NCBI RefSeq assembly: GCF_964019385.1
Contig: NC_088643.1
Coordinates: 72,650,574 to 72,714,573, forward strand
Length of the DNA: 64,000 nt
DNA from: Sycon ciliatum
Lineage: Eukaryota; Porifera; Calcarea; Leucosolenida; Sycettidae
Direction: 5' to 3'
The position numbers and the translations under genes were made by a program. The notes under the pieces were generated by a model that saw nothing but the letters and a program-made list of their open reading frames with translations, was not told where the DNA came from and made no database searches. The number at the start of each line of letters is the position of its first letter. Within the stretch, counting starts at the first letter, position 1. This document shows, piece by piece, positions 6,240 to 58,928 of this stretch.

Positions 6240-7082
6240 TATGTGTTGTCTTTTTTTCTAGCTTCTGTCTGGTAGCCAGACTAGTGTAGACTTTGAGATC
6301 TCGGCGCCGAACGGGCGGATGGTGTATACGGAGAGGCAGCAGAGCAGTGGTGCCTATGATCACACGGCAGAGCAGACGGGTGACTATGAGTTTTGCATCA
6401 ACAACCAGTTTGGCTCCTGGGGTGAGAAGCTAGTCTTTCTGGACTTGGCGTTTGACCGCTCGCCTCACTTGCCTGATGATGTCCCTACCGAGGACCATGA
6501 ACCTGGACATGAAGCTGAGGAATCTGCACAGGGAATGGGCGTAAGTGTGCGAGTGGACTATTTTCACTTGATCGTCTACGTGCAGGAGTGCCAACAGCTT
6601 TGATTGATGTACATGTATGTTGAGCTAAAGGTCAACCCATCCGTGGCTACTCCTGGACTTTGAAGAGAACTTCAGACATATTGGATCATTTCGCCAGACT
6701 TGCCTTCGTACATTCCATTGCTGTCAAGGTTTCATTTTTAGCATTTGCTGGCGATTCTTTGTACATGTTGAATGCATCCTGTCAAATGTCAGGAAATGCA
6801 AGCAATCTGTTTGCACTTGACCAATGTAATGTGTGTCTTAACTCTGTGCTTTGTTGCATACAGGAAAGTCTGCGGAAGGTGGGCCAACAGCTCGACCAAG
6901 TGCGTACCATTCAGGAGTACCTGCGAGTTCGCGAGGCACGGCATCGCCATACAGCCGACGACAATTTCAATCGTGTGCTTGTATGGTCTGTGTGTGAATG
7001 TGCCGCTCTCATTTTCATCGGCTCTGTTCAAGTGTTTGTCCTAAGAAAGTTCTTTGAGAATAGCGGCAAGACGACAGCATAG
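4002..7082 (+). CDS. TMED: p24/TMED family cargo receptor, gamma (TMED1/5-like)
   Basis: Three exons, 4002-4157, 6262-6540 and 6864-7082, all phase 0 with GT-AG borders, encode 217 residues, the usual p24 length. Residues 1-20 form a signal peptide (hydrophobic LTIVYFFALLC). A GOLD domain follows, with the expected cysteine pair near C36 (LRECFYE) and C97 (DYEFCINNQF). A coiled-coil stretch (RKVGQQLDQVRTIQEYLRVRE) precedes one membrane segment at about 183-205 and a short tail with the FF motif (RKFFENSGKTTA). Known role: type I membrane proteins that cycle in COPI/COPII vesicles and sort cargo between ER and Golgi. The tail lacks a terminal KK dilysine. ATG 4002 is followed at once by a second ATG at 4005, and either could start. 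Intron 1 (2.1 kb) carries a 197-bp inverted-repeat element. Confidence 0.93.
4257..4453. mobile_element. 197-bp MITE, TIR CAGGGGCGTCGGA, 5-bp TSD ATTCA
   Basis: The ends are CAGGGGCGTCGGA and its near complement TGCGACGCCCCTG. The direct repeat ATTCA flanks both sides (4252-4256 and 4454-4458). It has no coding capacity and sits in TMED intron 1. A longer relative with the same ends and a 5-bp duplication lies at 17669-18216. Confidence 0.75.
6196..6234. repeat. (GT)n microsatellite in TMED intron 1
   Basis: A short GT run ending about 25 bp before the exon 2 acceptor. Its length variation could affect the polypyrimidine region, which is an inference. Confidence 0.9.
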
Positions 7083-10510: not shown

Positions 10511-13500
10511 TTACGTTCGACGAGCTCGAGTTCTCGCTGCAGTTGCTGGCTTGGCAGTCATACGAGACGCCTTGGCTGGCGAGGCGACCTTGGCAGCAGC
10601 TGCAGCTCTACGACCGCGGGTTGGCTTAGCAGGAGACTCGGCAGGTGTCGCTGCCGCTCGACGGCCGCGGGTGGGCTTAGCAGGCGACTTGGCAGGTGCC
10701 GCAGCAACTCTACGGCCACGGGCTGGCTTAGCAGGTGATTCGGCAGGTGCTGCAGCATTTCTACGGCCACGGGTCGGCTTAGCAGGTGACTCGGCAGATG
10801 CCGCTGCCGCTCTACGGCCACGGGTCGGCTTAGCAGGTGACTTGGCAGGAGTCACTGCCGCTCTACGGCCACGGGTTGGTTTAGCAGGTGACTCGGCAGG
10901 TGCCGCTGCCGCTCTACGACCACGGGTTGGCTTAGCAGGGGACTTGGCAGGTGCAACTACAACCGCAACTCTACGACCGCGGGTCGGCTTAGCAGGTGAC
11001 TCGGCAGGTGCCGCAGCAGTTCTACGACCACGGGCTGGCTTAGCAGGTGACTCTGCAGGTGCCACTACTGCGACTTTACGGCCACGGGTCGGCTTAGCAG
11101 GTGACTTGGCAGCTGTTGCTCTACGACCGCGGGTCGGCTTAGCAGGTGACTTGGCAGATGCCGCAGCAGTTCTACGACCGCGGGTCGGCTTAGCAGGAGA
11201 CTCTGCAGGTACCACTGCTGCGACTTTACGACCACGGGTCGGCTTAGCAGGTGACTTGGCAACTGCTGCTCTACGACCGCGGGTTGGCTTAGCAGGTGAC
11301 TTGGCAGGTGCTGCAGCAGTTGTACGAGCGTGGGTCGGCTTAGCAGGTGACTCGGCAGGTACCACTACTGCGACTTTACGACCACGGGTCGGCTTAGCAG
11401 GTGACTCGGTTGGTGCCGCAGCAGCTCTACGACCACGTGCAGCCTTGACTGGTGATGCGACAGGAGTGGCATCCTTCTGAGAGGTAGCGGGCATTTTGCG
11501 AGCAGATGGAGAGGCAACTACTTTCTTGCCACGGCGTGAAGACTTAGTGCTGCGTGCCTTGGCCGGTTTGGTAGCAGGCACAGGTGATTGTGCAACACTA
11601 CTGAGACTTGTGCCTACAGTCACTGTTACAGGTTTGAGAGAAACGCCAGCCTGGATGGCTCTGCGCACCGGAGTAGCAATGGCAGCAGGGGGCTTCGTCG
11701 ACTTCAGAGCTGGACGCGACCTGATGGAGTCACGGACTGGTGTTGGAAGCGCAGGCTCTGGTGCGGTACGTCGGAGACTGGTACCCTTGCGAATGGCAGC
11801 ACGGACTGGAGTAGTGAGCGCAGCACGTGGCTTTGTACTCTTGAGTTCCGTGCCAGCCCGGATAGAATTGCGCACGGGTGATGGCAAACCAACAGGAGGC
11901 TTGGTGGACTTCAACTTTTTCCCAGCTCTGATGGCAGTGCGGACCGGCGTTTTGAGTGGCAGCTGTGGCTTGGTGTTGCGCAATTTCTTGCCAGCCCGGA
12001 TTTCTGCACGTACTGGGGTCTTCAAGGCGGCAGCAGGTTTGGTAGTACGTAATCTGGAGCCAGCTCGAATAGCTGCCTTTGCAGGTGTTGGGAGAACCTT
12101 GGGTGGCTTAGTACTCTTGAGAGACCTTCCAGATCGGATGGAATCCCGGACAGGAGTATTGAGTGCCTTTGGAGGTGCCGTGCTGCGGAGGCTACCACCC
12201 TCAAGAATCCCGTTGCGCAGTGGGGAAGAGAGCACCCTGGGTGGCTTGGTAGTCTTCAGCGAGGCTCCAGCCTTGATCTGTGACTTCAAAGGTGTGGAAA
12301 GGACCTTTGGTGGCTTCGTAGACTGTAGCGAAACACCAGCCTTGATCTGTGACTTGATCGGGGTGGACAGCGACTTGAGTGGGCGTGCCCTCTTCAGGAG
12401 AACGCCTGCTCTGATTTGAGAACGCACAGGAGTAGAGAGTGATGCCGATGGCTTGGTGCTTTTCAGGGTCCTGCCAGCTCTGATTTGAGAACGCACAGGC
12501 GTAGAGAGTGATGCCGATGGCTTGGTGCTCTTCAGGGTCCTGCCACGCCTGATGGCCATTCGAGCCGGGGTTGGCAAGGCCTTGGGCGGTGCGGTATTTC
12601 GCAGTGGCGGCCTGGCCCGGATGGCTTCACGGATTGGCGTGTTTAGTGCCTTTGGGGGCTTGGTGCTCTTCAGCGTCTTCCCTGCTCGGATAGCAGAGCG
12701 GGTAGGCGTGTTGAGGGCCCTTGGAGGCATGGTGCTCTTCAGCGACTGGCCAGATTGGATAGCAGCACGGATAGGTGAATTGAGAGCCTTTGGAGGTGCA
12801 ATACTCTTCAGAGCTCTTCCAGTCTTGATGTCATTGCGGACGGGAGTCGACAGTGCCTTTGGTGGCTTAGTGCTTTTAAGCCTCCGGCCGGCTCTAATTT
12901 CAGCGCGAACAGGCGTTTTGAGAGCTGGTGATGGTTTGGTGGACTTCAGCGATCGTCCTGCTTTGATAGCCTCCCGGACAGGCGTGGTCAAAGCCTTGCG
13001 TGGTTTTGTACTCTTCAGAGACCTGCCGGCCTTGATTTCAGCACGGATGGGCGTCTTGAGAGCTGCCCTCGGCTTGGTTGATTTTAGGGACCTGCCAATC
13101 TTGATATCATCCCGGACTGGTGTAGTCAATGCTTTGCGAGGCTTGGTGGACTTGAGCGTTCTCCCAGCTTTGATCTCAGCACGGACAGGAGTCTTCAGAG
13201 CAGCCACTGGTTTCGTTGATTTTAGAGACCTGCCTGCTTTGATATCATCGCGGACGGGTGTAGTCAATGCCTTGCGGGGCCTGGTGGACTTGAGCTTAGT
13301 CCCAGCTTTGATCTCAGCACGGACAGGAGTCTTCAGAGCAGCCACTGGTTTCGTTGATTTTAGAGACCTGCCTGCTTTGATATCATCGCGGACGGGTGTA
13401 GTCAATGCCTTGCGGGGCCTGGTGGACTTGAGCTTAGTCCCAGCTTTGATCTCAGCACGGACAGGAGTCTTAAGAGCAGCCACTGGCTTCGTTGATTTCA

Positions 13501-15444
13501 GAGACCTGCCTGCTTTGATATCATCGCGGACAGGCGTGTTCAGGGCCTTTGGTGGCTTAGTGCTCTTCAGGGGCTTGCCGGCACTGATTTCAGACCGAAC
13601 AGGCGTTGCCAGGCCTTTCCTGGGCCCGGATATCACAGGAGCATCGGCGATCAGGTCACCGCAAACTGGTGTTGCTCGAGCAGGCGATCGGCGGCTGGTT
13701 CCAGAATCGCTATCACTGGACTCAGTCTGCTCAGCTACGTCTTGCAGACTCATCATCGGCATTGCCGACATTGATCTGCGGCTTGTGCTAGCGTGCGTGG
13801 CCGAATCAAGCACCGCGGGTGTGCTACGCCGCCGGCCCTCGGGTGTCTTGCCTAGCCTGACAGGCGTATTCGGAGGTAAGGCCTTGTCAATCAACTCAGG
13901 ACTGAGCGGCGCGGCAAATACAACACTTCGTCGCTTATTGGAGACAGCCGACCGCCGCAGGGCGCTCCTGGATGGAGTCATATTGCGAGCAATTCTAGGA
14001 GAACTTGTCGCCCCGATTGGTGACTTCGCCCCAGGAATCTGCAAAAAAACAGAAGAAAAAACGCGGGTCAATGTGTCAGGAATGCGACATCAAAACAAAC
14101 TGACGACTACTGCATTCATATCATCATGATTCTACACTGCATCCACCCCACCATATGTCTGGGTCAGTGGCACAGTATTGCACGAGATTCCACATAAAAT
14201 TACGAAACACGACAATAAGCAGGGTGTAACTTAAGGCTCGCCCAAAGCTCTCTATCACATGAGGCATAGTCCAATGCCAAGCAGCACAAATATAGTAGTA
14301 CGTATGAATCCAGCCAGAAGAATTTATTGAATTCGCTTAGCCGGCCGTGTACATATAAGCCCTTTTCCCTGTCTGAACCTTACACTTCCAGGTTTTGACA
14401 CCGCCCGAATAGGTACAAGTAACCCAGAAAATGAACACAGTTATGTGCTGCATTGCATTTGATATGCTAGATGCTTGAATCATGATGTGCGGGAAGCACG
14501 GAAGTAAATTCACTTCCTGAAAAGTGCGAAAAAGTGCCCGAAAGACGGTTTACAGTGTCCGAGAAGAAATACGGGGAGAGGTATTCGAATTGAAAGCTAG
14601 TACATCCATACTGTATTTACGGGCCTTCAGGACAGTATACAGAGTCAAGTCCAAGCATACCCAGTGCCAGAACAGGGCATGGGCTTTCGGACGGTAATCC
14701 ATGACAGTCAGTATGAATACCTATGCGTATTAATTAAACAAATGCACACTCAGTACTGACACGGATAGTCAGAGGATCACGATCCCAGGCAACCTACTAG
14801 TATTGTAAGTACATACACACTCTCGACACCGTCATTCATTAGGATCGCAGGATCACGATCCCAGACACAAGACGACAAGTGACATCAAACGGGCTTGTTC
14901 TAAACGTGTCATCCCAATTATGTAGTGTACATGTGACGTAACGCCAACATTCAAATAATTTACCTCGTAACGGAATCTTCGCAACCCGATTCCAAGTATC
15001 TCTCCACCCTTCAAGCCAACCTGGGAGGTAACGGCAATGCCATCGATGGTGGCTGGATTGCTCTCGTCCATATTCTTCAGCCATACCTATAGGAGACAGG
15101 GAATCCATAGAACAATAGTGGTACTCACGAATGAACGTGGCTGGAAATTTCCATCAAAGCATGTTTAGTTGGACTCACTCGTTTGTTTTCGTCGATCACC
15201 AGCTTGGCATGAACATCGGAAACGGTAGGCAGCTGGACGCGTATATCACACTCCGCGTGCCTAGCACACAGATGGCACACCACAAGAATAGTATTCGATC
15301 TCAACTCTACCCTAGCCCTAGCAAGACTCCGGCATTTCAGGCACTCACTCACCTGCCAAACAGACATTCAGTGCCACTCAGAGGGAAAACGCTTGCGTCT
15401 GCTCCACTCCTGTTAATGACCACCAAATTTCCAAAAGGATCCAT
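10511..15444 (-). CDS. MKI67: Ki-67-like protein: FHA domain, PP1-binding domain, CDK-site repeat arrays
   Basis: Four exons: 15353-15444 (start codon 15442-15444), 15179-15260, 14964-15086 and 10511-14038. Phases agree and all borders are GT-AG. The protein is 1,274 residues. Residues 1-99 form an FHA domain whose start (VVINRSGADASVFPLSGTE, then ECDIRVQLPTVSDVHAKL) matches human Ki-67 residue by residue in spacing (VTIKRSG..FPLS, ECDIRIQLPVVSKQHCKI). Residues 136-168 hold a Ki-67/Repo-Man-type PP1-binding domain: RSVVF (RVxF motif), then LSPELIDKALPPNTPVRLGK. About 29 tandem 23-residue repeats follow, with core TPVR..I.AG..LKSTKP. Next is a basic array of 17 SPAK units, mostly SPAKPTRGRR. 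The basic C-terminus ends ARTRARRT. Known role in vertebrates: chromosome-periphery surfactant recruiting PP1 in anaphase. The 122-residue vertebrate repeats are absent. Divergent from CLINT1. Confidence 0.85.
10526..11470 (-). repeat. DNA array encoding SPAKPTRGRR units of the Ki-67-like protein
   Basis: About 17 imperfect units of 42-57 bp. Each encodes SPAK (full CDK1 consensus S-P-x-K) followed in most units by P-T/A-R-G-R-R/K and an Ala/Val-rich linker. The RGR core resembles AT-hooks but lacks the second proline. The antisense frame is open too, which creates a long shadow ORF. Confidence 0.9.
11600..13640 (-). repeat. 69-bp coding repeat array (29 x 23 residues) of the Ki-67-like protein
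   Basis: I counted 29 units matching [ST]-P-x-[RK]-x-x-I, spaced about 23 residues apart. Within about 13190-13470 a 138-bp two-unit block is duplicated almost identically, showing recent expansion. Outer units are more diverged. Confidence 0.9.
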
Positions 15445-16579
15445 TACGGCGTTGAAACATTAGTTAGATAGGCGCTCACATGAGAAGAAAACAAGATGTG
15501 GACAAAGTTTTGAGCTGGTACAAGCCTTTACAACCAGGACGAAGGAAACGACTTTCCATGTGTGCTTGCTTGCCCGAAGCAAGTCCATGCATTGACCGTT
15601 CCTTTGACAAGTTTGAAATGTGGCGGGCCAATCATTCATTGGTGTTCAAGCTGCATACATTTCACATGTGGGACTTTACTTGTTGTGCAACCATGGTGAC
15701 GTTTCAGCCGTTGTGTACGTACGTGTGCGTAGATCTACGGCGTTGCCAATGACGCGAATCGAAACGGCGATTTTTTCAAAGATGCACCATGTAGATCTGT
15801 CACTGTCTGTGCATGGCATGCAGATGATGCACGCCGCCGGTGAGAAGTGATCGTGCAGCGTGAGTGGATATGCAAGATCAACAACTCCCACACGTCGTTC
15901 AACGACGTTCAAACAGAGATCACGAAAAAGTAAAGTCAAGATGATTATGAAGAACCTTTTGACACTGTACTGTTGTGTTGACTGACAGTTTTGTGAGTGG
16001 TGAGGAGAGTGACAACTCTTACCATGCCAGTGATCATGGTGATTACTAATACTAGATCTGGAGACGGGGAGTGTACTACAGAATGTAGTGCTAGCAGTGG
16101 GCTGATTTAGGCCAGTGATTAGCTACATCATTGTACATGGTTACTGCTAAACTCAGCTGAGGGAACTACAATGTAAACTGTATGATTGTAGATATCTACT
16201 GAAGCCCACGCAGGTATGGAGTAGATGTATGCTGTACTCGTAGACCTACTCACTCAGGCTACTGCCTACTCACTGTACCTCATCTCAGGCTACTGCCAGT
16301 ACTGGCTCGCCTCCGTCAGTGACCGAACCACAGACAGTACAGTCGTACTTGTAGCCTGTAGCCTGGGTGTAGGCTGTACTACTACTAGGCCAGAGTCAGA
16401 GAGACCCAACCACAGTTCAGGAGAAGAACGGCGTCAAGAGCCAAGGCCGCTGCGATAATAATATGTGAAGTCAAAGACCGATTACTCCAGTTGTGGCCAT
16501 CAGACGCAGGAAGAGAACGAGAGAGAGTAGCGTTTGAGTTTCATAATCAACCTCTGGGTGCAATTTGAGAATCGCAACA
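15445..16579. promoter_or_regulatory. Intergenic, presumed divergent promoter region of Ki-67-like and CLINT1 genes
   Basis: 1,135 bp between two divergent start codons. There is no coding segment that I can support and no core promoter motif that I can assign. Regulatory role inferred from layout. Confidence 0.35.
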
Positions 16580-21700: not shown

Positions 21701-24700
21701 CTGACTGGTGAAGCCATTAGAGGAAGTGGTGGGTTAAGGTGGCAGACCACCTTCGGCCACACTGCAGGACACATCGATATTCAAAACACTGCAAAGCAGC
21801 CAATATTCATCATTTTTGCTTCAAATTTTGAGGAGACATTCCTTTAGAGTGTCTGCCTGCAATAAATCCAAAGATAGAGCCATCAACCAACTGTTAGCTG
21901 CTCACTGAGCTTTTAAATATCAGGAATCGAAGTTTGCTGCGGACTTGGAAAATTTCGGTTCATGATATAACAAAGACCATCTCAATCAAACAATTAGTAA
22001 AGTTTGGCCAGCAACATATCTGAGGTGCCAACGAAGAGATATTTTGAGAAAGCCCACTGAGACAGAAATGATCAGAAGCACATTGGAACAGAATCGGAAC
22101 GGTACGCAAGCATTTATTTTCTTTGGACGCCAAATTATATTTCTGAGTGCAAGTTCTGTAAAAACAAAGAGTGTTAGCACCTAGACAATTTCCCATAGAT
22201 CTGTTTAGATATTAGGTTTGTTGGTCTAGGATGCATGACGGCTGAGATATCGTGTACCAAAGTTTGCCGGGTAAGCCCAAAAAGTGCAAACTTTTGCCTA
22301 TCTAGAATCCTCCAGCACAATATGTTTCTCCTTCTTCCTGCTGAGCTCGGTCTGCAAACCCCTTCCTGATTGCCCGTCTTCGCTTTCTAGCTGACTTTTC
22401 TTCTTCACTGGACTTGCGCCTCTTGTGATAAGCCTTGTCGGAGTCAAATCTACTCGAGAAGGCTGTAATGGATAGGCTAACTGCACAACCAGATGCGAAC
22501 AGGATGTTGGCCACTGTCTTGTATCCATCGTTGAAGATTGCCGTCGTAAGATGAGCAGCTGTCTCCGCAGTTTGCCTGCTGCAGAAGGACTTTTTGGGAC
22601 ACATGCCCCAAACGAGACCATTCAACGCTTCATTGGCATTCTGTGTTGCAGACCTGGCACAGCGAAGCAGAAGTGCGTTATCTGTTAGACGCACGTACAC
22701 AGGCTTCATCTCGTCAAAAACAGCTTTGGGTAATGCATCATGGTGTGTATACTCAGCCCCACCGGCTTTCTTGCTTTGCCAACCACACCAAGAAGTTAGT
22801 CCAAGTGGGCAGTACTCGTGGCGTGGTTTGTCTGCAGTTGAGCCACTATGGCAAAATGATGCCCATATAGCCAGCCCTCTTCATCTCAGCAAGATCACCA
22901 GCATGTGTCTTGATTGTGTCCCCATAGTAGTGCTGCAAGGAGTCAATGCGTTTGTCAGTAAGTCGACCCCTTCCACCAATTGGTTTGCCGTCTGATAGCT
23001 TCTGCTCTCCAAGTCGCTGCCGAAGGTCTCGCAAGTTCTTTCCAAGACGTTTTCTGACGTGCCCAACACATTCCTCCTTGGCGATCTCCACGTCACCGTA
23101 TGGTTTCGTTGCCGAGACAGCCATGTGACCTTTACTATCACCATCGCCAATGTATGTAGTGTATTTGATCTTGTTCGTGTCCTCCGACCTTGCCCAGAGC
23201 TGCTTCACTGCTTCAGTCTCCATGGCCGGTGAAGATACAGTGGTGTTGATCTGGCAGTCATCTTTGTGTTTCGCCTTCCAAGTATTGAACTGCACCTGTG
23301 TGATAGATTTCAGATCCAGTTTCTGTTGCCAGACTTTGCACAAATCGCAATGCTTGGACAAAACCAGGACATCAATAACTTTTTGGTTGTCAAAGGAAAT
23401 CACAGACTGGACATTGTAAAGGGATGAATAACCTCGTCGCATCCGAGTACCGTCCATACTGACAGCGACACGATCTGGATACTCGACATTTTCCGCTGTT
23501 TTAGTCGTCAACAACTCCGTTGCCCATTTCCGCATAGACTTGTCACAAATCTCAACAGCTGCGTCATGTAAAGCAATACTGTGATTCTGGAACGGTTCTT
23601 TTCGCACAGGTTCTGGCAAATCCATAACTGCACAGAATTTGCGCAATCCCTCTCTAGCTCTGCCAATCATTCTCATTTAGGGCTGAAACGAACATGGATT
23701 TCGTCTTAACGAACCTTCTTTATCATAACGAACGAACATGCGACATGCCAAAGAGTACACACACTATAACAGGGAGGGAGGTGGGAAGTCAAAATAGCAC
23801 TAGCTTCCTAACAAACTCCTTTCTGTCTACACAGCTCAGGCTGTAGCTTGGCAATGTAAACAGCCTCTAGCACATCCAGGTGACATTTGCTGCGCGCCCG
23901 CGCATGAATCTTGAAGTGCTCTGGAACATTCTTACATACTGCATTCAGGCAAGAAGGGGACATGATCAGATGTGTAGTTATTGCAGAATCATTTTTCACA
24001 GCTGATGGCTTGTGTGAATCACGCTGGTTGGGTTCACACTTACTAGTACTCGGGATAGGGTTAGCCTGCGCTACCTGATCCGATGGGCTCCTGGTCGGTG
24101 TCCGTGCAACTTGGCGTTGTTGTAGTAGCCGAGTACTGCGGCGAGCGCTGGCTGTTGTCTGCACCTTCTTGGAGCCGACACGCTGTATGATGGTTGAAGC
24201 GGTGATAGTTGGCTTTGTCAGGGCTGTTGCCAGTGCCTTCTGTTTGGGCGGTCTTCCTCTCCTGGGTTTGACGTAGTCGACACCTGGTGTTGCGGCCATG
24301 ACTAGTCTTGGCGGAATATGCTGCGACATGCGATCACCTAGGCATTGTGTTGTCTTGCCGATGTACCTATTTTGACTTCCCACCTCCCTGTTATAGTGCG
24401 TGTACTCTTTGGCGCAACTCACACTATCATTCAGCCTGTGTATGTTTCATCACAATTTTCCACCAATATGCTGTATAAATTGACATCGTTGTGCTTCGTC
24501 ACATTATCAGTGCTGCCAAATAATTTTCGCCTCGGCAATTTTTTTTACAGAGAATTCAAAATATCACCTAAAACTAGGGATGAAACGATCATCCATTTCT
24601 TCTTATCGAGTACCGTTTATTATTAACGATCGAGTTATCATATAACGAGTATGCTGGATTTGTATGACAAATAAATTTTACTGGTCTCCGGGGGGGGGGG

Positions 24701-35137: not shown

Positions 35138-36718
35138 AAACCCTCGCCCGAAGAAGAAACCTTGTCTGGAACCTCGCCAAATCGTCTGATGATTGCACTT
35201 AGCAAGAAACTGACAATCTCTTAATTAAATCTCCTTTGTGTCGTTTGTGTGACACAGAAGAGATATAATTAGGGGCTAGGTGGAGGGAGTGTGTGCCATG
35301 GAACAGCTCACACAGTGTCTGCAGGCACTGCAAAGCTTCGGTCACAGTGCCTTCATGCATGCACATGAGCCTTGTGACCCAGTAGGCACCATGCATGCAT
35401 GGTATTGCCAGGTCTCCAAGACCATAGGCAAACCCCTAGCCACATGTAGTATAGGGAGAACTCGGAGCCTGACCACTGGAGACAGCACACGGATAGAATA
35501 CGAGTAAAAAGGAGTTCATCCTACTGGCTGAAGGGTTTTACTTCGAGTTGACATGAGGAAATGTGAACTTTCCCACAACTTCATGTCCCGGTATGTTTAC
35601 AAAGAGCTATAGAAGGTCATGAGAAGACCGAACATCTTTGTTACATGGCATGCTTTATTGCAAAAGAAGGATCCACGAGCGGGATTCGAACCCAGCACCC
35701 CTGTCTTTCCGGGACAGTGCCCTACAGATTAGGCTACCAGGGATCACACACACAGACACACCAGGCCCGTAGCACTTTTGGTTGGTCCGGCAAGATCCGA
35801 CTTCGATGCCCCCCCCCCCCCCCCCCCCCGAGCCCACACTCATACATATGCCGGTACATGTACAAAATGTACATGATTCAGTGTACATACATTGTACATG
35901 TACATGTACATGTAAACGTGACCATGCAGAGTGACATAGGGCGAGAAAAGGAAGAAGGACGTTCGGCATGAGTCAGGAAAAAGGGCATACAAACCTCGGC
36001 TTCGCCTCGGTTTGTATGTCGGTTTATATTTCACGTACAAGCGTACTGTTGGGTTGTATTATATACATATAGTAGCAACCGTATCTAAATGCATGTGATA
36101 AAAGAACCAAAATGTACCTTTGGAGGAGGAGAAAGGATATTGCAATGGAATATCTTTGGTACAAACCCTATCTAGAAAGAATTGGAGGAAGAAAAGAATC
36201 AATACATTTCAGGAAGTACAGTGTAGGAACATTTCACGGGCATGGCTGTCCACATGACCTTCAGCAGGGTCATACTCCTGAAAGTGATGACATGTATATG
36301 TAGGTCTACTACCGCCACTACTATGTGCTACATGTACCTCTATGCTTCTTATTGCACACATCCTCATCAATGGTACCGGGTGAACATCCTGAGCTGCTCA
36401 CATCTGTGAGGTCCTGCTTTTTTTTTTTTTTTTTGCTTTTTTTTGGGTCAAATATTGGTCCGGCAGCTGCCGGACCTGCCGGACCGCCTGCTACGGCCCT
36501 GCACACACAGCTCCTTCTTGCTACACTGCCCCCCCCCCCCCACCCAACAGGCTGGGTCTTCACGCTGTATCTACTCGCGGGGGGGGGGGGGGGTACGATG
36601 GGTCGTGGGTTCGAGCCATTGTCAGGTGCCAATGTTGCAAAAGAAGGATACATGAGCGGGATTCGAACCCAGGACCCGTCTTTTCGGTACAGTGCCATAC
36701 CGAATAGGCTACCGGGGA

Positions 36719-36802: not shown

Positions 36803-39800
36803 CCGTGGCTCCTTCTTGCTACAGCTTGATCCACTGCGGCAACACCACACTGTACACATGCACATACATGTACAATTGTACATAGTACAGTGGTACCGAG
36901 TCCAGTACTGTACTTGCACTGGCATGCCCGCACCTTACATACATACAAACACATAATATTATATAGTAGAGTAGTAGCAAGTCCAGTACTTACATACATA
37001 GTACAGTGTGTGTGGAACAGGCCTCAGTTACGGGCAAAATAAACACAATGAAAAGGCACAACCGTGAGCAGTACCAAGTCCAGTACTTACACTGGCATGC
37101 CTGTACCGTGCCCGTCAGGTTGCCGTCAGCCGCGCAGCGTCGTGTAGTGCTGCCCGCCTGCGCATAGCCAGTGTTGCACTGCACCGTTACCACGGCGTTG
37201 TACGGCAGCCGAGCAGGGCCGGACGGACTCAGCGATCCTCCCGTGCTCACGGCCGGCGGGTAGTCGCAGAACACAGCTGATAGACAGCAGCACCGGTGTG
37301 AACAGGCAGAAGAAAACACATAGACGCAAGACCATTGCCACACAATGCCACACAAGCCCATACACCTGAACCATGCTTACCAGTGTAAGCCCACACAAGC
37401 CCATACCTGGATTATGCTCCTATTCAAGTCCCATCATCAAGTTATCATCATCAAGTTCTACGTATACGCAGTGCACAGAGGTGTGCATACACGCCCATTA
37501 CTGAGGCACTCTTCGCACTTTCATAAAAACGAGAACGCAATTGTCACGATCTGCGTCAGAATCGTTCACACTGACTTTTCTGCATCTGCAGGGAACACCA
37601 CCGATCTGGTACTGAGATCATGGCACATGAGCAGCTCCTAAAGCGTTGGTAGGGGAGTGGATCACACTCACCACAAACATGGGTTCATGCCATTACAAGA
37701 CGTTGCAGTATAAGTACCGTAACGTTGATCATGATAATTATAGTAATATGTTTGCAGGGCAACCCCATAACCATTACACTCCAGTCTCATTTTAGAGTTC
37801 GAGTTTTCGATCCTAAGACGAAGGTAGGTGTGAGAGAAGTCGTCCTGATTCCATAAACTTTGTGATCATTGTGATTTCATGTACGTTGAAGTTGAAATTT
37901 GTGTGCCCGTGTACTGATACTTGATCAGATTAATGTTCAACATGTTCTATTAGTGAACTAGTGAACATGTTCTATTCATTTTTACTTCAAGCACTAGTAC
38001 AGTACTATCAAGCACACCCCTCGGATAAAGTTTGTCAAGTGGAAAAATCTGACCGGTTAGTGTTGCTCACTAGCCACTAGTGACTACTAGTAGATTTGTT
38101 CGTCCACAAAATTTGCAATATACCCGGCACCAGACCCGGAGCCTGCTCATGAGAGGTGGCTAGGCCCCGGGTCGGCTACAGAGCCGATCATGTCCCCCAT
38201 GCCTAATGTCAGTGTCATGGGAGGATGCATGCTACACACAGTCATATCTAGTTGTTTCAACTAGCCATTCCGCTAGCCACCAATATACAGCTAGCACAGT
38301 AGTGCGTGGACAGTGAGCAGCCTGCACCATCAGACCTTACGCATGCACCATCAGACCTTGCGCATGCACCATCAGACCTTACGCATGCATTTCGGATATC
38401 CACCGGTGGCCAGTGTGCTGGCCATGCCATTGACAGCGTGGTACCAAGCAGTGTTGCTGCAGATAAGGTCAGCGGCGTTGTCCAGACGGAATCCAGCGAG
38501 GCATGCGTAGTGCAGCAGCGAGCCGTTGGTGAACCGCGTCAGGCTTCCCGTCATGGCCGGTGTGCGTGTGCCATTGACTGGAGTGCCGGGGTCTGCACAT
38601 AGAGGATCTGCCAGAACACAACACAGCACAGCGGTCGGACACAATAGCGGAGCATTATCATGATCATGGATCTTCAGCAGAGAGACACAGAGAACCTTCA
38701 GCAAATCCCGTGCACCGTACAACCGGAGCAGTATCATGATCATGCATCCTCGGATAGAGACACAGAGAACCTTCATTGAGTAAATCCCGTGCACAATACA
38801 ACTGTTGTATTCAAACAAACAAATAGGGAGGGAGTTGAAAAGGGCAAAGCCTGAAGAAAAATTGACTGTCACTACCAGGACTCCGAGACATACCGGCTTC
38901 CTGTGGCACTACACAGGCTGGTGGGATGCAGCCCTCACTGTGCCTACACACATCACGCACGCACACTAATGTGTGAAGAGCCCCAATTATTTACCAAATA
39001 TTCCTATATATATTATTTAAAAAGTTTTAAGGGAGGAGTTGAAAAGGGAAAGCCTGGTCTGAAGGAAGAAAGGACTGTCACCACCATGACTCGATCCAGG
39101 AACTTTCCCTAGGCTATAGGCCAGCGATGCTCAACCGCTAAGCTGTGGTGTAGCCATAATTACAACAGACGGTTATTACTTTGGTGATGGGTTTGAAGTG
39201 GTTCTTGTCGGATTTTGAAGGTGAAAATATTGGCTTAAATGGATAGGTGCTCCTTCACTGTGAGTCTATTCATGCCACTGAGCCTAACTTAAAAGTCTCA
39301 TTTCCCCAAATTTGGCACTTGTCGCGTTTTGCATCTACAAAACTATGCTCATGGCATTTTTTCTGTTGGTCCTTTCATGGCATATTCCAGCAATCCATGT
39401 ATTCTTTCGGACTGTCAGATGAATAGATCAGAAACTGGACAACATGTCTGCAATACACACAGTGGCGTCACACTTACTTTCACAATGGGTACCGTTGTAT
39501 AAACTTGGACACCTGAGCAACACAGCAGCAACAACAACAAGATGACGTTTCAACCGGTACGCCGGATATGTGAACACTATTTGGATGCCGGCAGCATGCA
39601 AGCAACACTGATGTCCTTGTTCTCCGTATAGGTCACCTTCAACCTAGGATAACACATTCACCCGCGTGCATTTCTGTGACATGGATGAGCGACTCCCTCA
39701 GCTAAATAATTGAACTGATGAATATTGTTCCACGTCTTTACTATTCGATGTTGGCATTCGACCATTACAAGACACACCTACAAGGTGGCCACAGTGCTGC

Positions 39801-48763: not shown

Positions 48764-58928
<10,165 letters not shown>

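Follow-up and report, generated by a model that had tools for sequence, protein, structure and literature searches.

A stretch of 64,000 nucleotides (the window, C1:72650574-72714573), taken from an assembly of 538,412,230 bases in 313 contigs, contains on its minus strand, at 10511-15444, a predicted gene which very probably is a single-copy member of the Ki-67/Repo-Man family. The gene comes from a non-vertebrate animal, most likely a sponge, and would represent the state before vertebrates had two genes of this family; its product would be a CDK1-regulated coat protein of mitotic chromosomes that recruits protein phosphatase 1 (PP1). Gene structure, domain homology, copy number, regularity of the repeats, conserved sites and the PP1 arginine read by the KiR docking motif are observed directly and carry this reading.

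The gene has four exons, all with GT-AG borders, which join in phase to give 3,825 nt and 1,274 residues with one terminal stop. Exon 1 (15353..15444, minus strand as all the others) opens with ATG at 15444, encodes residues 1-31 with the start of the FHA domain, and ends with the donor CAG/GTGAGT, codon 31 being split. Exon 2 (15179..15260) continues in phase, between AG/GT borders, with FHA residues 31-58. Exon 3 (14964..15086) adds FHA residues 59-99 between the acceptor CTCCTATAG and the donor GAG/GTAAAT. Exon 4 (10511..14038), an open frame of 1,192 residues, supplies residues 100-1274, that is, the PP1 dock and two repeat arrays; it starts behind the acceptor TTTTTTTGCAG and closes with the stop TAA at 10511-10513. 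The original prediction, made from the letters of the stretch, had given exactly these coordinates, this strand, four exons and in-phase joins, and the splice check bore it out.

Profile searches for the two domains expected in such a protein found both of them above the curated Pfam cut-offs, as had been proposed. In the first 217 residues, FHA (PF00498) scores 40.9 bits over residues 28-92 (cut-off 20.7) and PP1_bind (PF15276) 42.9 bits over residues 134-172 (E 5.5e-11, cut-off 27); on the whole protein the scores are 37.3 and 38.1 bits. The same FHA stretch also matches Yop-YscD_cpl (37.9 bits, cut-off 33.2), presumably owing to the shared FHA fold. When compared by phmmer with 177,635 distinct PDB sequences, the FHA part matched two human Ki-67 chains (E 1.8e-22 and 2.2e-22), the next chain over this region being an uncharacterized protein at E 0.062. 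An alignment of the first 99 residues free of gaps had been claimed. It contains one, an extra residue at about residue 59-60 adjoining the exon 2/3 junction, with 47 of the 99 columns identical. The dock alone matched Repo-Man (E 7.9e-7 and 8.2e-7) and Ki-67 (E 3.5e-6), no other chains lying below E 0.4 and the next match being a ribosomal protein at E 0.46. Judged by these E values, the PDB matches of the FHA and PP1 parts are not chance.

We also searched in the opposite direction, with the human Ki-67 FHA stretch against the 538 Mb of the own genome. Of the four matches up to E 10, three fell on this gene (exon 2 with 22.2 bits, exon 1 with 20.2 bits and exon 3 with 17.4 bits), exon 2 being 50% identical to the human domain over the stretch matched; the fourth was one other locus, on C11 (21.4 bits). 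With the 178 N-terminal residues as query, all four genome matches up to E 1 were exons of this gene, and PP1_bind matched the genome once (E up to 0.001, two candidates scored) in a search that is blind to introns and could miss an intron-split dock. These two results indicate that the gene is the only one of its kind in the genome, the PP1_bind model having revealed no separate Repo-Man. Homology of the FHA domain and the PP1 dock, the return search in the own genome and the single copy support the predicted membership in the Ki-67/Repo-Man family.

The PP1-docking segment covers residues 133-172 (13820..13939, minus strand) with KRRSVVF, LSPE and IDKALPPNTPVRLGKTP, and is matched by PF15276 and by Repo-Man and Ki-67 chains of PP1 complexes. 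An RVxF motif and an LPPNTP string, anticipated within residues 136-168, are indeed there, as RSVVF at 136-140 and LPPNTP at 153-158. The segment agrees with 11 of the 14 positions specified in the KiR motif (PMC5005033), the deviations being Ile in place of Phe, Val in place of Leu and Leu in place of Arg/Lys. PP1 binding of Repo-Man is blocked by CDK1 phosphorylation at 400, 412 and 419 (PMC5005033). With T394 and F404 of Repo-Man as reference points, these residues correspond to the LSPE, NTP and GTP sites. All three sites are kept in the window protein, as Ser145, Thr157 and Thr164; in the human Ki-67 chain of 5j28, the corresponding residues are Arg, Met and Ala. The human Ki-67 reference sequence probably carries Thr where this chain has Met.

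A search of the own genome with the N-terminal family of PP1 led to two places. The first (L033) is a PP1 gene 167 kb away on the same contig, which reads RLLEVRGRQPGK after joining of its first two exons by eye. Its Arg falls at what we take, going by the human PP1 sequence, to be the position of Arg20 of PP1 gamma. The second (L032, C3:7266666-7266809) is a divergent PP1-like phosphatase in a single 351-residue open frame, with Arg at the same position. It is for Arg20 of PP1 gamma that the KiR motif selects (PMC5005033).

The join between the FHA exons and exon 4 deserves particular attention. It could be that two separate products were wrongly united here, namely, from exons 1-3, a short FHA protein and, from exon 4, an independent PP1-targeting protein resembling Repo-Man, or that an FHA-only form exists beside the long one. 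The dock indeed scores closest to Repo-Man, which is not known to have an FHA domain, whereas the window protein as joined has one. Moreover, the intron between exons 3 and 4 is the longest of the gene (925 nt), the join across it is predicted from sequence, and the frame running past exon 3 meets a stop after 36 more residues (a 77-residue frame at 14853-15086), so that a short FHA-only form is possible. Nevertheless, the same intron is in phase 0 on both sides and has a GT donor and a strong polypyrimidine acceptor, neither a second PP1_bind match nor a second N-terminal copy was found in the genome, and human Ki-67 shows the same order, FHA domain and then PP1 dock (PMC8354752). We consider two products unlikely and keep to one Ki-67/Repo-Man gene.

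Array A (11630..13630, minus strand) is composed of 29 units of 23 residues with the core L-x-[TS]P-x-[RK]-x-x-I-x-x-G-x-x-L-K. The spacing is exactly 23 residues in 28 of 28 cases, every one of the 29 units carries the CDK1 consensus [ST]P-x-[RK], and four positions never vary (P at -6, P at +1, I at +6, L at +12). The mean pairwise identity of units reaches 58% in protein and 56% in DNA, while codon positions agree in 65% (first), 69% (second) and 35% (third) of comparisons. This divergence of third positions, together with a ratio of nonsynonymous to synonymous differences (pN/pS) of 0.46, suggests selection on the protein and not recent copying alone. Units 3 and 5 are identical in protein, and so are units 4 and 6, with a period of 138 bp. 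Thirteen of 17 matches up to E 1 obtained with the unit in the genome lie in this gene, the other four having E 0.05-0.5; by this search, the unit appears convincingly present in this gene only, within its own genome. Together with 17 SPAK-type units of the second array, the 29 x 23 residues form long tandem repeats inside a single exon, exon 4, as is characteristic of Ki-67. Derivation of array A from the PP1 dock, through the shared string KAL(PP)NTPVR, was rejected, the score being reached by 473 of 2,000 shuffles, that is, at chance level. A structure prediction for 319 residues of exon 4 gave short helices only, with low confidence (predicted local distance difference test, pLDDT, 44).

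The core of array A resembles WH2, and the array might accordingly be a tandem WH2-like actin-binding one, the protein tying actin to chromatin instead of, or besides, a Ki-67 coat role. With the Pfam WH2 profile (cut-off 23.1), array A reaches 60.3 bits and a set of eight units 35.3 bits, reversed and column-permuted controls of the eight units give no WH2 match, and the motif I-x-x-G-x-x-L-[KR] occurs 26 times, against a mean of 0.03 and a maximum of 1 in 500 shuffles. However, such summed scores count the copies of one motif many times. Three single units yielded 15.5 bits (E 0.014), 14.5 bits (E 0.029) and no match, so that even the best of them stays below the 23.1 bits of a single full motif, and these matches span 12 residues of the 28-position profile, without its N-terminal third. 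On the whole protein WH2 reaches 39.4 bits, yet not one stretch passes E 1. The two scrambled controls matched other families by chance, down to E 0.002, array A has no PDB sequence match up to E 1, and the structure prediction has the low confidence mentioned above. We hold a protein linking actin to chromatin to be quite improbable, and regard the WH2 resemblance as a lead, not as membership.

Array B (10568..11404, minus strand) comprises 17 matches to [SA]PAK[PA], 15-19 residues apart, ten of them being SPAKPTRGRR. With a view to the C-terminal LR chromatin-binding domain of Ki-67, the composition of residues 906-1274 was computed; it is 25% K+R but only 15% L+R. These residues match no Pfam family up to E 10, and on this ground the idea that array B contains an AT-hook or another domain already described was rejected. 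The motifs resemble SPKK and similar basic motifs, and by analogy with these, array B is expected to bind DNA or RNA. In the whole protein there are 51 CDK1 sites of full consensus, whereas 500 shuffles have a mean of 6.7 and a maximum of 15. The computed net charge would drop from +230 to +128 with all of these sites phosphorylated.

Upstream of the gene, at 15612..15642, 168 bp from the ATG, lies a possible G2/M promoter cluster, which was first spotted by eye and tested afterwards. Read on the plus strand from 15612, it consists of TTTGAA, the four nucleotides ATGT, GGCGGG and CCAAT, with ATTGG ten bases past the start of CCAAT. TTTGAA and GGCGGG are candidates for a cell cycle genes homology region (CHR) and a cell cycle-dependent element (CDE). 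No other place in the window has TTYRAA within 3-6 bases of GGCGG/CCGCC, in any orientation. Among 5,000 stretches of 500 bp generated by a first-order Markov model, there were 14 CHR+CDE matches, and no stretch with such a match also had a pair of CCAAT boxes within 60 bp of each other. Taken alone, CCAAT or ATTGG is frequent, with 106 occurrences in the window. In human MKI67, the promoter has a CDE separated by four nucleotides from a TTTGAA CHR, and also a second CHR and CCAAT boxes (PMC8629999). Read in gene direction, the cluster described here likewise gives CDE, then 4 nt, then CHR. It is suggestive of G2/M control of this gene, and it could serve a divergent gene.

Several observations weigh against the family assignment or against a close likeness to Ki-67. 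The vertebrate Ki-67 repeat PF08065 has no match up to E 1 either in the protein or in the genome (control genomes gave none either), and all homologues compared are described as carrying some version of the Ki-67 repeat motif (PMC8354752). The NIFK segment that binds the human FHA domain (PF12196) likewise has no genome match up to E 1, nor did it have any in the control genomes. In both human Ki-67 and Repo-Man the 'x' of RVxF, Ser or Thr, is a target of Aurora B (PMC5005033), whereas here it is Val; Ser137, placed just ahead of this Val in KRRSVVF, could replace it as the target. Both candidate elements of the promoter cluster, CDE and CHR, are inverted compared with human MKI67. Alternating charge blocks have been described for human Ki-67 (PMC9106583). 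With all full-consensus CDK sites phosphorylated, the charge comes to or below zero in only 36 of 651 segments of 25 residues for array A and 72 of 340 for array B; array A thus stays mostly positive, and the blocks are not reproduced. A charge-block mechanism as in human Ki-67 was accordingly rejected as weakly matched by computation; it is partly available at most, a lowered positive charge being the safer inference.

The reciprocal search belongs here as well. The human FHA stretch does return this gene in its own genome, but the best single exon (E 0.053) is barely ahead of the C11 locus (E 0.092), and only the summed score separates them: the margin is small exon by exon and clear in sum. 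That we deal with a different FHA protein whose PP1 motif is of independent origin is nevertheless extremely improbable, for although FHA and RVxF motifs are common in general and the C11 locus scores near the best single exon, the Ki-67 FHA match is some 20 orders of magnitude better than the next PDB chain and the PP1 match spans the extended dock beyond RVxF. Given the missing PF08065, we file the gene as a member of the Ki-67/Repo-Man family that precedes the split and has repeats of its own, not as a vertebrate-type Ki-67.

For the timing, localisation, phosphorylation, PP1 binding and all other cell biology of this Ki-67/Repo-Man protein, we infer the following course. The CDE/CHR and CCAAT cluster would activate the gene in G2/M, and the highly basic arrays would coat chromatin. 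CDK1 would phosphorylate the three sites of the PP1 dock and, in each repeat, at most about one site, which would lower the positive charge and hold PP1 off until anaphase. Following dephosphorylation, PP1 could dock and help to reset the chromosome surface, while the FHA domain would recruit a phosphothreonine partner.

Parts that occur later in two vertebrate proteins stand together here, so that the order of gain and loss of the FHA domain, dock, CDK1 switch and repeats becomes testable. The 29 perfectly spaced repeats, which do not match the vertebrate repeat and carry a CDK1 site each, fit the view that repeat number and phosphorylation outweigh repeat sequence. The CHR/CDE cluster is a hint that the control of this gene in G2/M may be just as old. 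A bolder version, which we hold to be rather unlikely, is that the ancestral animal Ki-67/Repo-Man has been preserved in this gene, with an FHA domain and a dock bearing the full CDK1 switch, which later split into Ki-67 (FHA domain and repeats) and Repo-Man (the three-site switch). In this version, the 23-residue array would have evolved independently, as a brush in which each unit carries a CDK1 site and a WH2-like core and which might bind both actin and chromatin.

Other features were recorded in the window. Exons with SET pieces (PF00856) and a CXC domain (PF18264) at 48767-51152 (minus strand) look, in our opinion, like an EZH2-type histone methyltransferase. A Mutator-like transposase fragment (PF20700, 4e-42) lies at 22849-23676 (minus), an exon of the p24/GOLD family (PF01105) at 6262-6600 (plus) and a Sushi repeat exon (PF00084) at 36993-37376 (minus). 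There is a tRNA-Ser(GGA)-like element at 35669-35743 (minus), and a similar translated string near 36.3-36.9 kb suggests a tRNA-derived repeat. Over the genome, at least 117 homeodomain matches were found (150 of 191 candidates scored); the best 30 of the 117 appear to belong to NK, Msx, Hmx, LIM, POU, PRD and related types. A Hox type is absent from these 30, which suggests that the animal is probably a sponge. Nine tandem NK-like homeobox matches, eight of them very similar, occupy C1:64401823-64600837 (L004-L006, L008, L009, L011-L013 and L018), L013 having an in-frame stop. On C14, at about 16-19 Mb, homeodomain matches of lower score form a large local cluster, and many of them lie within long open frames. 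COX1 was not found in the assembly; the control search matched in 8 of 14 genomes.

Among known systems, vertebrate Ki-67 (MKI67) shares with the window protein the N-terminal FHA domain, the PP1 dock and CHR/CDE/CCAAT elements upstream, as well as long tandem repeats within one exon that are disordered, basic and rich in CDK1 sites. Ki-67 repeats are extremely variable and, where present, lie in one exon (PMC8354752), and a 22-residue CD motif is said to be conserved in all Ki-67 homologues (PMC4841783). The window protein differs from vertebrate Ki-67 in having no PF08065 and units of 23 residues instead of about 120 (PMC8354752), in Val as the 'x' of RVxF and in its basic SPAK/TRGRR tail. 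Its dock begins at residue 133, 33 residues past the FHA domain, whereas the RVxF Ser of human Ki-67 is residue 507 (PMC5005033). With vertebrate Repo-Man (CDCA2) it has in common the dock with all three CDK1 switch sites, which scores slightly better than with Ki-67; the 'x' of RVxF is Thr there (PMC5005033) and Val here. Repo-Man itself probably arose by duplication of Ki-67 (PMC8354752, a review of 2021).

We found no publication on a sponge Ki-67 gene in literature searches of partial coverage. The original prediction offered the gene as a new dating of the FHA-PP1-repeat design to an early animal. This claim of novelty fails because Booth et al. (2014, PMC4032110) and an annelid paper of 2025 (PMC12669781) already report invertebrate relatives of Ki-67; the repeats, in addition, are not of the vertebrate type. 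The authors of the latter paper state that, to their knowledge, no phylogenetically validated orthologs from other invertebrates had been described before. The family members named by Booth et al. (2014), aligned over the conserved PP1 region, come from Ciona, Saccoglossus, Hydra and Trichoplax. Platynereis Ki-67, supported by phylogeny, has FHA and PP1 domains (PMC12669781). The window protein shares with these invertebrate relatives the conserved PP1 region and, in the case of Platynereis, the combination of FHA and PP1 domains.

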